Shown here piece after piece: positions 53,150 through 59,340 of a stretch of DNA of 64,000 nt. The translations under genes were made by a program, and so were the position numbers. Origin of the DNA: Caldilineaceae bacterium (GTDB taxonomy: Bacteria > Chloroflexota > Anaerolineae > Caldilineales > Caldilineaceae); assembly GCA_011523365.1 (NCBI GenBank), contig WTGY01000211.1:1-64000 (forward strand). The letters are read 5' to 3'. Numbering within the stretch: the stretch's first letter is position 1; each line of letters opens with the position of its first letter. The notes beneath the pieces are model-generated. The model did not search any database. It was not told the origin of the DNA and was given only the letters and a program-made list of their open reading frames with translations.

Positions 53150-54205
53150 ATGAGACTAAGCAGCCAGGCATTCGGCAGGACGGGGAGGGGGCACGGGGTC
53201 AGGCAGTATTCGCTGGCCAACAACAGGGGCGTGGAGGTCGATGTACTGGACTACGGGGGGCTGATCCGCACGTTGACGACGCCGGATCGCGACGGCGAGG
53301 CGGGGGACGTGGTGTTGGGCTTCGACACGCTCGACGAGTATTTGGCCGGGCACCCCTATTACGGCGTGCTGGTGGGCCGCTGCGCGAACCGCATCCGCGG
53401 GGGAAGTTTCGAGTTGGATGGTGTGCGCTACCAGCTTGCGCGCAACGTCAACGAAGACCATCTTCACGGCGGGGAGGTCGGCTTCGGCAATGTGGTGTGG
53501 CATGCGCAGCCTTTTCAGAACGAACGGGAGGTCGGGCTGCTGCTCTCACACGACAGCCCGGACGGAGAAGACCTGTATCCGGGGGCGCTAGAGACGACGG
53601 TGAGGCTGAGTCTGAACGATGACAACGAGGTGCGTCTCGACTATCATGCGACCTGCGACGCGCCGACGATCGTGAACCTGACCAATCACAGCTACTTCAA
53701 TCTGGCCGGGGAGGGCAACATCCACGACCACGTCGCCATGATCGATGCCGACGCGTTCACGCCGATGGACGACGCGCTGATCGTGACAGGTGAGGTGCGG
53801 GACGTGACCGGCACACCGTTCGATTTCCGCCAGCCCACTGCCATCGGCGCGCGCATCAACGCAGACGACGAGCAGATCCGGTTTGGCGGCGGCTACGATC
53901 ATAACTTCGTTCTCAACGGGGAGCCGGGCACGCTGAGGCTGGCGGCGCGGGTCATGGAGCCGGTCAGCGGACGGGTGCTGGAGGTGCTGACGACGGAGCC
54001 GGGCGTGCAGTTCTATACTGGCAACCAGATGGAGGCGGCGAACCCGGGCAAAGACGGACAGGTCTATCCGCACCGCGGCGGGTTCTGCCTGGAGACGCAG
54101 CATTTTCCGGATGCGCCGAACCAACCGCACTTTCCATCGATTGTTCTGCGGCCCGGCGAAGCGTATACGCAGACGACCGTATTCCGCTTTTCGATCGGAC
54201 AGTAG
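53150..54205 (+). CDS. galM: aldose 1-epimerase (galactose mutarotase)
   Basis: A 351-residue enzyme of the aldose epimerase fold. Catalytic residues are seen in NEDHLHGG, TNHSYFNLAGEG and RPGEAYTQTTVFRF (catalytic Glu). NRIRGGSFELDG is the substrate-site Arg/Asn motif. It interconverts alpha and beta anomers of hexoses. The gene is close behind the oxidoreductase and is followed by a strong terminator. Confidence 0.95.
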   Translation: MRLSSQAFGRTGRGHGVRQYSLANNRGVEVDVLDYGGLIRTLTTPDRDGEAGDVVLGFDTLDEYLAGHPYYGVLVGRCANRIRGGSFELDGVRYQLARNVNEDHLHGGEVGFGNVVWHAQPFQNEREVGLLLSHDSPDGEDLYPGALETTVRLSLNDDNEVRLDYHATCDAPTIVNLTNHSYFNLAGEGNIHDHVAMIDADAFTPMDDALIVTGEVRDVTGTPFDFRQPTAIGARINADDEQIRFGGGYDHNFVLNGEPGTLRLAARVMEPVSGRVLEVLTTEPGVQFYTGNQMEAANPGKDGQVYPHRGGFCLETQHFPDAPNQPHFPSIVLRPGEAYTQTTVFRFSIGQ

Positions 54206-54275: not shown

Positions 54276-55280
54276 ATGGAAGGGTACCCAAGCGAACTGA
54301 CTGCGGCGGCGGCCTTTGACGCGAAGCGGGCGATCCTGAGCAAGCGGGACATGTTCCGGCCGCTGGCTGTGGGGCGCACAGAGGGGCTGGCCGACGCGTT
54401 GGGCGGAAAGAAGGTGCGGGGGGAGACGCCGGTGCTGGTGCTGGAGCGGGAGGGCGCGGCGCTGGCACTGCTCACCAGCGAGATGATCTTTCACCATGTG
54501 GCGCAGGGCGAGTGGAACGGGACACCGTTTCTGGCCACTTTCTGAGCGCCGTGCAACAGCGGCGTCGGTCTGACGCCGGTACTCGACGGGGAGACATACA
54601 GTTTTGCGACGCGGGGCCTGTATAACGGCATGTCGTTGATGGGGGACCACCAGACGGGGTCGTACTGGGACCACGTCACGGGCGAGTGTCTGCACGGTCC
54701 GCTCAAGGGTAGGCGTCTCGAACTGGAGCCGCTGCGGCATATGCGGGCTGACCAGGCGCTGGCGCAGTTCCCGGACGCGCGTATAGCGCGGTCACGGCTG
54801 CCGCTGCCTTTTGGTCTGGCGGCGGGCCTGATGAAGGTCCTGGTGCGACTGACCAACGGACGATTTTTGCCGCCGAGGTTCGCGGGTTCGATGGGTGAGG
54901 AAGACCCGCGTCGGCCGCGGCTTGAGATGGGTCTGGGGGTGTGGACGGAGAGGGTCAGCCGTTACTATCCGCTGGAGGTTCTCAAGGCGGGGGACGGTGT
55001 GTTGTTCGACGTCATCGACAGCAGAAATGTGCTGATCTACCTGGACCCGGTGTCGGGCACGCCGACGCCGCTTTTCGCCGATGGGCAGGATGCCGAGTGG
55101 GATGGGAGCGACCTGCGCCTGGAAGACGGTGCGATCGTGCGCGACGGCAGGCTTTTCGATCCCTCCGGAGAGGAGTTGCCGACCGAACAGCCGCTGCACC
55201 TCTTTGCGCGCTGGTACGGTTTCTCGCTGACCTTTCCGAACTGCGAGATCTACGGGGACGCGGGAGAAGGAAGCGGATGA
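54276..55280 (+). CDS. DUF3179 protein with in-frame TGA, putative selenoprotein
   Basis: One frame of 335 codons with a single internal TGA at 54543-54545. Upstream, 89 residues end EWNGTPFLATF; downstream the same frame continues APCNSGVGLTPVLDGETYSF to a natural stop. The joined protein fits DUF3179: an ALALL/EMIFHHVA half-site, then the signature where family members have YCxxC, here F-(TGA)-A-P-C, then DHQTGSYWDHVTGECLHGPL. The second DUF3179 half has RYYPLEVLKAGDGVLFDVID. So TGA replaces the first Cys of CxxC, giving UxxC. A hairpin with GGUCU loop follows (54560-54578). AAGGGG precedes the ATG at 54276; the later ATGs at 54630 and 54639 have no ribosome site. A nonsense mutation is the alternative. 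The role of DUF3179 is unknown. Confidence 0.75.
54560..54578 (+). promoter_or_regulatory. SECIS-like hairpin downstream of in-frame TGA
   Basis: CGGCGTC at 54560-54566 pairs perfectly with GACGCCG at 54572-54578 around loop GGTCT. The loop starts 21 bases after the TGA. The bacterial SECIS bound by SelB has a stem-loop shortly after UGA with GG/GU in its apical loop; E. coli fdhF uses a GGUCU-type loop at about this distance. Confidence 0.65.
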
Positions 55281-55354: not shown

Positions 55355-56152
55355 TTGCAACTCAATCTTTCGGGCAAGACAGCTATTGTCACTGGAGGCA
55401 GCGCGGGCATCGGGTTGGCCTGCGCGCAGGCCCTGTACGCGGAGGGTGTCAGCGTGCTGATCGCGGCGCGCGACGTAGACCGGCTGGCCCAAGGTCTCGA
55501 AGCGATCACGGATCATGCGCCCGAGAGCAACGCCAAGGCGCTCTCTGTGAGCGCGGACGTGAGCACGGCAGGCGGGGTCGAACGGGCGGTCGAACGGGCC
55601 CTTTCGACATGGGGTCAGGTGGACATTCTCATCAACAACGCCGGGTCGGCGCCGAGCGGAGACTTCTACAGCCTGAGCGACGACGCTTATCAGGGTGCGT
55701 GGGAACTGAAACTGCTGGGATATATACGGATGGTGCGAGCGCTGGCGCCGCAGATGAAGGCGCGGCGGGAGGGACGGATCGTCAACATTGTAGGCGCTGC
55801 GGCCCACAATCCCACGCCGTCATTTGTTGCCGGCGGCACGGCCAATGCTGCGATCATCAACTTTACGAAGGGGATCTCCCAGGACCTTGCCCCCTACGGC
55901 GTGCGTATCAACGCCATCTCTCCCGGCCCCGTGAACACGGAACGGGCAAGGCAACTCGCCCGCCAGGAGGCGGAAGCGCAGGGGATTTCGGTGGAGGAGG
56001 CAAAAGCCCGCCGCATCGCGTCGGTGCCGCTAAGCCGCATGGCGGAGGCGGACGAGATCGCGGACATGGCGCTGTTCCTGGTCTCGGACCGGGCGGCGAG
56101 CATTACAGGTGCGGAGGTCCTCATCGACGGGGGAGCGACCGCAAGTGTCTGA
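55355..56152 (+). CDS. SDR-fold protein lacking the catalytic Tyr/Lys
   Basis: A 265-residue Rossmann protein of the short-chain dehydrogenase/reductase type. The cofactor loop AIVTGGSAGIGLACAQAL and INNAGSAP are intact, and VRINAISPGPVNTE is standard. The catalytic region is not: the Ser-Tyr-Lys pattern IS..YxxxK appears as IVGAAAHNPTPSFVAGGTAN, so Tyr and Lys are Gly and Asn and the Ser is also missing. It may bind NAD(P) without the usual chemistry. Start is a TTG with AAGGAG upstream. It overlaps the MFS gene by eight bases. Confidence 0.85.
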   Translation: MQLNLSGKTAIVTGGSAGIGLACAQALYAEGVSVLIAARDVDRLAQGLEAITDHAPESNAKALSVSADVSTAGGVERAVERALSTWGQVDILINNAGSAPSGDFYSLSDDAYQGAWELKLLGYIRMVRALAPQMKARREGRIVNIVGAAAHNPTPSFVAGGTANAAIINFTKGISQDLAPYGVRINAISPGPVNTERARQLARQEAEAQGISVEEAKARRIASVPLSRMAEADEIADMALFLVSDRAASITGAEVLIDGGATASV

Positions 56153-57398: not shown

Positions 57399-57558
57399 AG
57401 AGGAGTGAGGAGAGGGATACAGCTTTGCTCGTCTCAGTTGGGCTTGCGGTTTGACCGTGGCTGAGCTGAAAGACTATTGGTAGTAGTACTCGATGATTCA
57501 AAGTGCGGATTGATGCCTTGTATATGGATTGGGCAATTAGGAGATGAGGAGGCAAAGG

Positions 57559-59340
57559 ATGACAACCGAAGTTGCTGCCGGCGCTTTTCAGCGCATTGCA
57601 AGTGTCGCCGAAGTCAAAGAGACCGGCCTGCATACGGTCCAAGTGAACGGGCACGTGATCGTGCTGGTCGATCACGAGAACGAAATCTACGCGCTCGACA
57701 ACCGCTGCCCGCATATGGGTTTTCCCCTGGACAGGGGCAGCGTGCATGACGGGATTCTGACGTGCCACTGGCACCACGCCCGATTTGATCTGTGCACGGG
57801 AGGTTCATTCGATCTGTGGGCGGACGACACGCCCAGTTTCCCGGTGGAGGTGCGGAACGGTGATGTGTTTGTGGATGTAACGCCGCGGCACGATCCGGTG
57901 GAGCACCAGCGCCACCGTCTAGGGGTCGGGCTGGAGCGCAATCTGTCGCTGGTTGTGGCCAAGGCTGCGATCACGATGGTGGACGAAGCCGGGGACACGC
58001 TGTCTCCGTTTGCGGCCGGCCTGGAGTTCGGGGCCCGGTACCGCATGGAGGGTTGGGGGCAGGGCTTGACGATGCTGACGTGCTTCCAGAATCTCCTGCC
58101 CAGCCTGGGACGTGAGGACAGGGCGAGAGCACTGGCCCACGGGCTGGCCGCGGTCGCGGCTGATTCGGCAGGCAGTTCGCCGCGCTTTTTGGTTACGCCT
58201 CTGCCGGACGGCAGCCCGGACCTGAAGACGTTGAAGCAGTGGTTCCGCCGCTTCATTCTGGTGCGGGATGCGGAGGGTGCGGAGCGGTGCATCATCACGG
58301 CGCTGAGGTCGGGCGCCGGGCCGCAAGAGATGGCCGATATTCTGTTCAGCGCGGCGACGGACTTCCGCTATATCGATGTCGGACATCCGCTGGACTTTAC
58401 GAACAAGGCCTTTGAAGCGCTGGATATCGTCGGCTGGGAACAGGCGGAAGCGGTACTGACCAGCCTGGTGCCCGGATACGCCTCGGCGCGGCGGATGGAG
58501 GAGTCGAACGCGTGGCGCAATCCGATCGATCTGATCGACGTGTTGGGCGATGCGCGGGCACAGATTCCAGCCGCCCTGGCCGCGGGACAGGGGCAGCGGG
58601 GCCTTTGGGCAGGACGCGCCGAACTGGTGGAGGTGTTGTTGCGGGATGATCCGCACGCGATCGCCGAGGCGCTGTTGGCGGCGCTGCGGAGCGGGGCCAG
58701 CGAGGTTGAGCTGGCGGGTGCGGTCACCTATGCGGCGGCGCTGCGCATTGCGCGATTCCACACGAGCAACGAGTTTGGCGACTGGGACACGGCTCTGCAT
58801 ACGTTCACGTTCGCCAACGCGGTCCACCAGGGTCTGCGGCGTCTGGAGGGGTACGCGCCGCCGGACGAGTATCAGCTGTTGCTGCGGGGTGTTTTCGATG
58901 CGGCGATGAGTATCTATCTGGACCGTTTCCTGAACATTCCGGCGGCGAGGCTGCCGGCGGCTAACGGTACGAACGGGGCAGCTCCTTCGCTGCCGGCGCT
59001 CGATGACATGCTGGACCAGCAGCAACAGGTGAACGAGGCGGGCAACGCGGTCGGCAGGTACCTTTTCGAAGGAGGCGGCGCGGAAGCGCTGCGGGCGGAG
59101 CTGGGTGCGCTGCTGCTGCGGGAAGACCGCAACTTCCATACGATTCAGTGTATCGAGGCGGCATTCCGCCAGCATGATCTGCTGTCGGCCGACCCGAACT
59201 CGCAGGAGGAGGCCGTGCTGGTGCTGGTGGCTGCGGCCCGCTACCTGGCGGCACATGCGCCGACGATGCGGGCGCAGGGCCAGACATTCGGCATTGCCCG
59301 CCGACTGCACCGAAACGAGAAGCTGTTCGAGGGAGAGTAG
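57559..59340 (+). CDS. Rieske [2Fe-2S] protein with long helical C-terminal domain
   Basis: A 593-residue protein. Residues 1-105 are a Rieske domain with ligands Cys50 and His52 (CPHMGFPLDRG) and Cys69 and His72 (CHWHHARFDLCTGG). The rest, about 490 residues, is mostly helical with many His (HTSNEFGDWDTALHTFTFAN) and is not a Rieske oxygenase catalytic domain I can recognise. Electron transfer to an unknown oxidase or hydrolase-like module is an inference. AGGAGG precedes the ATG at 57559; the ATG at 57544 overlaps that ribosome site. Confidence 0.85.
   Translation: MTTEVAAGAFQRIASVAEVKETGLHTVQVNGHVIVLVDHENEIYALDNRCPHMGFPLDRGSVHDGILTCHWHHARFDLCTGGSFDLWADDTPSFPVEVRNGDVFVDVTPRHDPVEHQRHRLGVGLERNLSLVVAKAAITMVDEAGDTLSPFAAGLEFGARYRMEGWGQGLTMLTCFQNLLPSLGREDRARALAHGLAAVAADSAGSSPRFLVTPLPDGSPDLKTLKQWFRRFILVRDAEGAERCIITALRSGAGPQEMADILFSAATDFRYIDVGHPLDFTNKAFEALDIVGWEQAEAVLTSLVPGYASARRMEESNAWRNPIDLIDVLGDARAQIPAALAAGQGQRGLWAGRAELVEVLLRDDPHAIAEALLAALRSGASEVELAGAVTYAAALRIARFHTSNEFGDWDTALHTFTFANAVHQGLRRLEGYAPPDEYQLLLRGVFDAAMSIYLDRFLNIPAARLPAANGTNGAAPSLPALDDMLDQQQQVNEAGNAVGRYLFEGGGAEALRAELGALLLREDRNFHTIQCIEAAFRQHDLLSADPNSQEEAVLVLVAAARYLAAHAPTMRAQGQTFGIARRLHRNEKLFEGE

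Follow-up and report, generated by a model that had tools for sequence, protein, structure and literature searches.

The closest described proteins belong to the same Pfam family as the gene reported here. The entry 'DUF3179 domain-containing protein, pfam11376, UxxC/T' stands among the prokaryotic selenoprotein families in two reviews (PMC9312934, PMC13188914), with reference to Zhang and Gladyshev (2007), and goes back to the 2007 work on Olavius algarvensis symbionts. Mentions of DUF3179 in the literature searched are few, and are chiefly these two reviews. An earlier note on the DNA analyzed here had proposed a DUF3179 selenoprotein and had stated that no selenoprotein of this family was described. 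The claim of novelty is wrong, the family being already listed; the selenoprotein reading itself stands, and the checks made of Sec machinery, of homologues, and of SECIS covariation all favor it.

The window, that is, the whole stretch of 64,000 nucleotides that was analyzed, comes from a draft genome of 5.67 Mb in 214 contigs (G000); the named genomes nearest to it are Caldilineaceae (Chloroflexota) MAGs. The features considered in the window are as follows, the two neighboring genes being given as context only.

53150 to 54205, plus strand: upstream neighbor, aldose 1-epimerase family, outside the feature under study
54276 to 55280, plus strand: predicted DUF3179 selenoprotein gene; read-through of TGA gives 334 aa with Sec as residue 90, and the final stop is TGA at 55278-55280
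54543 to 54545, plus strand: UGA codon, predicted to be read as selenocysteine, the U of F-U-A-P-C-N; the U-x-x-C aligns with the C-x-x-C of Cys homologues
54552 to 54554, plus strand: codon (TGC) for Cys93, presumed resolving partner in U-x-x-C, invariant in 69 aligned homologues
54560 to 54578, plus strand: candidate bacterial SECIS hairpin with a 7-bp stem and the loop GGUCU; distance from UGA to apical loop, 21 nt
55355 to 56152, plus strand: downstream neighbor, short-chain dehydrogenase

The frame starts with ATG at 54276, comprises 334 codons and a stop, and has as its sole in-frame interruption the TGA at codon 90, in the context T-F-U-A-P-C-N. The frame, single TGA, and DUF3179 identity given in the earlier note are exact to the base, and its hairpin has the coordinates, 7-bp stem with GGUCU loop, and spacing that it claimed. 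In profile searches, the read-through product matches PF11376 (DUF3179) over residues 47-171 with 77.1 bits (E 2e-21), above the Pfam gathering score of 27 bits; of the 292 positions of the profile, only 22-147 are covered. The CxxC motif of DUF3179 is present as UxxC; across 69 sequences, position 90 is invariably C or U and position 93 invariably C. The same genome contains an intact second DUF3179 copy, a Cys paralogue (G000:C31, L001), which resembles the gene at 54276-55280 in belonging to the same Pfam family and in having CxxC at the corresponding motif, but differs from it in having a Cys codon where that gene has TGA.

The hairpin, CGGCGTC-GGTCT-GACGCCG, is perfectly paired and begins 14 nt past the TGA. 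Comparison with the bSECIS model (Zhang and Gladyshev, 2005, as described in PMC13188914) places it wholly inside the model limits, with a 7-bp stem, a 5-nt loop starting with GG, a spacing of 21 nt (range 16-37), and a dG of -11.9 (threshold -7.5). The z-score for the whole 61-nt fold is -0.73. Equally stable perfect hairpins in bSECIS geometry are found at 23 of the 1685 TGA trinucleotides of the GC-rich window, and those that also share the spacing and loop type of this one at only 3 of the 1685. Judged on this one sequence, the hairpin carries only moderate weight, and in a GC-rich genome it does not stand out statistically. An Rfam scan of the window at gathering threshold gave no match, and a permissive scan of 54500-54640 gave sub-threshold matches to unrelated families only.

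Conservation across genomes, together with covariation, places the hairpin far beyond chance. The six inner pairs of the hairpin are 99.4% paired across 54 homologues with TGA; four of the six show compensatory changes on both sides, and pair 21-33 is seen as GU, GC, AU, CG, UA, and UG. The covariation score, 0.452, with 31 double-changed cells, is higher than in all 500 shuffles (0.202), a control that leaves relatedness in, and higher than in all slid controls (at most 0.134). In the Cys control, comprising 12 homologues, the same columns are 59.7% paired and show no covariation excess; the covarying hairpin of the TGA copies is thus lacking in the Cys copies. Given the slid controls and the Cys control, a conserved structure is the only reasonable reading. 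The best hairpin loop lies 20-22 nt past the UGA in 58 of 60 distinct Sec sequences. The threshold of -7.5 kcal/mol is reached by none of the 12 Cys sequences, and is missed by 14 of the 60 distinct Sec hairpins when perfect helices alone count. Within the genus, divergence at four-fold sites is 0.053 in the six hairpin codons vs. 0.32 at the other downstream codons, approximately six-fold lower. Scanned in windows of 12 codons, the hairpin region ranks among the least divergent, with a window from codon +152 lower still, and synonymous divergence alone therefore would not prove constraint on the hairpin.

The UGA codon is itself conserved. A search of all 17 available same-genus genomes found the gene in 15, each time with a TGA inside the match and, in every copy whose motif was read, with the motif FUAPC; the gene is missing from the other two. 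Among the best 80 relatives in other genomes, drawn from a scan of species-representative genomes, the codon is TGA in 66 and is TGC or TGT in 14, as in a family in which Cys stands opposite the TGA. A motif search yielded 62 of the TGA copies and 12 of the Cys copies, and the remaining six were read by eye (four stops and two Cys); three of the four stops were verified as TGA, and the fourth, L118, has one TGA and ambiguous bases. Roughly four fifths of the subfamily members sampled have Sec. TGA copies are found in eight phyla: Chloroflexota, Gemmatimonadota, Acidobacteriota, Myxococcota, Calditrichota, Planctomycetota, Pseudomonadota, and Bacillota. When mapped onto a 69-sequence tree, the Sec/Cys label requires only 3 changes vs. 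13.8 expected. Members of the class beyond the close subfamily (L047, L048, L054) have TGA at the same site together with a hairpin, and these distant subfamilies indicate that Sec is not confined to one subfamily. One genome, that of Marinithermofilum abyssi (L093, L117, L139), contains both Sec and Cys DUF3179 paralogues of the same subfamily, natural material for comparing the two forms. Among plasmid records, a protein search returned no more than four DUF3179 matches, all of them weak.

The genome that contains the gene also contains the full Sec machinery that the earlier note had proposed seeking: a tRNA-Sec with anticodon UCA (67.6 bits), SelA (553.6 bits in a profile search), SelB (312 bits in a profile search), and SelD. 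The selD gene (L024, G000:C59:69397-70392) has its own in-frame TGA, which lies in the context CAGUASK and is followed after 32 nt by a GGUCG-loop hairpin, and the organism therefore very probably produces one or more further selenoproteins. SelA was detected in 22 of the 25 genomes that have a Sec copy vs. 5 of the 12 in which the fetched copy is Cys (Fisher p = 0.006, for the fetched copies only and uncorrected for phylogeny). The three genomes with a Sec copy and no detectable SelA probably reflect MAG incompleteness. Within the class, SelA co-occurrence is uninformative, because SelA is nearly universal there (58 of 61 DUF3179 genomes examined). As a separate observation, SelA of the genus (L019, G000:C200:56135-57565 in the host genome) is matched by its profile in two pieces, which an insert of about 30 extra residues near model position 245 separates (all genus members searched except G300).

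Several other readings of the TGA were weighed against these results. A pseudogene, in which the TGA would be a nonsense mutation and the DUF3179 gene would be undergoing decay, would accord with the existence of an in-frame stop and with the presence of the intact Cys paralogue in the same genome, but decay is at odds with the recurrence of TGA at this codon across 15 genomes of the genus and 66 of 80 wider homologues, and also with the pattern of divergence on the two sides of the codon. Divergence at third vs. first and second codon positions is 0.290 vs. 0.092 downstream of the UGA and 0.295 vs. 0.108 upstream; the similarity of the two parts indicates that the sequence beyond the UGA is maintained as protein, under protein-level purifying selection as is the part before it. 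The pseudogene reading is refuted because the TGA is conserved across phyla, and we consider it extremely improbable. A sequencing or assembly error that converted TGC or TGT to TGA might be suspected in a draft assembly of 214 contigs, but many projects have independently produced assemblies with the same TGA, among them two single-contig genomes; because independent assemblies agree, this reading too is refuted, and its probability is vanishingly small.

Recoding of another kind, in which TGA is read as Trp or Cys, or is read through by a suppressor, without Sec, has a precedent in that genetic codes with UGA as Trp occur in other lineages. It conflicts with the use of TGA as the final stop of the same gene and of several same-genus copies, with the finding that homologues lacking the TGA have Cys, and never Trp, at the position, and with the presence of a covarying SECIS hairpin and Sec machinery, and we judge it very improbable. 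Production of two proteins, one of 89 aa ending at the TGA and one of 216 aa restarting at an ATG at 54630, could draw on the ATG-initiated frame that does exist there. Yet the two parts form one chain in Cys homologues, and conservation at the protein level does not break off between the TGA and the ATG, a stretch that includes invariant Cys93; the chance that two separate proteins are made is exceedingly slight. The computational support for selenocysteine consists of conservation of the UGA at a position that is Cys in other homologues, covariation of a hairpin that lies at the bSECIS distance, downstream purifying selection, and complete Sec machinery. We conclude that the gene very probably, indeed almost certainly, encodes a DUF3179 selenoprotein in which UGA is decoded as selenocysteine through SelB and the downstream hairpin.

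According to the selenoprotein reading, SelB with Sec-tRNA(UCA) would bind the hairpin just 3' of the UGA and would deliver selenocysteine at codon 90, yielding a 334-residue U-x-x-C protein rather than an 89-residue fragment. Sec and Cys93 could then form a reversible selenenyl-sulphide in a thiol-redox reaction, reductase or peroxidase-like, and the selenenyl-sulphide may be reduced by a thioredoxin-type partner. The U-x-x-C motif, the Cys replacements, and general Sec chemistry suggest thiol/selenol redox catalysis; our specific functional assignment, a thioredoxin-linked selenol/thiol redox enzyme, is somewhat likelier to be right than wrong.

An AlphaFold model from 69 sequences has a pLDDT of 91.8, and one from 19 sequences is poor, with a pLDDT of 65.9. 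Foldseek found no match to the AlphaFold model in the PDB at E <= 0.001, and the family sequence profile gave no match to PDB chains. Residues 59-161 of the model resemble Rieske domains, with VIA-align Z values that reach 7.1 over 91-101 residues, too low to tell homology from a common arrangement, and Rieske proteins fill the VIA-align matches listed. No conserved pair of Rieske ligand loops, C-x-H and C-x-x-H, was found in the sequence or the alignment. Homology to Rieske [2Fe-2S] domains was unsupported when tried with hhalign against 13 Rieske domains of the same genome (probability 1.3), and an internal duplication, suspected from a repeating strand pattern, received no support from hhalign between the halves. 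It is conceivable, although doubtful, that the Sec-containing DUF3179 proteins form an ancient family of redox enzymes, one that mostly uses Sec, with Sec possibly original, and that has the fold of a Rieske-like barrel without an iron-sulphur cluster and with a U-x-x-C site instead.

No conserved operon around the DUF3179 gene was found across phyla. A shared adjacent neighbor was seen in gammaproteobacterial members only: a TlpA-like thioredoxin gene, located directly downstream, at about +950 from the match start, in five loci (L099, L106, L108, L118, L127). Both gammaproteobacterial products, the Sec-DUF3179 protein and the TlpA-like protein, have signal-peptide-like N termini and the DUF3179 protein of the window has none, and the location of the protein therefore probably differs between lineages. 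Further downstream in the window, at 57544-59340, lies a gene for a 598-aa Rieske-domain protein, unrelated to the DUF3179 gene as far as tested.

DUF3179, a table entry only in PMC9312934 and PMC13188914, occurs commonly, and often with Sec, in Chloroflexota, Gemmatimonadota, and Acidobacteriota. If UGA is annotated as a stop, genes of this kind are truncated at codon 90, and NCBIfam models gave no match to the DUF3179 protein of the window; such genes are therefore probably mis-annotated. The analysis adds to the listed family a covariation-supported SECIS element and a phylum-level distribution of Sec and Cys, and the SECIS alignment, together with Sec/Cys sister copies such as those of Marinithermofilum abyssi, offers means to test what Sec adds to an uncharacterised enzyme. 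The gene of the window resembles the DUF3179 selenoprotein of the Olavius algarvensis delta-1 symbiont in belonging to PF11376 and in having Sec in a UxxC-type motif, and differs from it in lineage, coming from Chloroflexota. The gene is a well-supported, solid further member of the listed selenoprotein family, and the family is spread more widely than PMC9312934 and PMC13188914 indicate.
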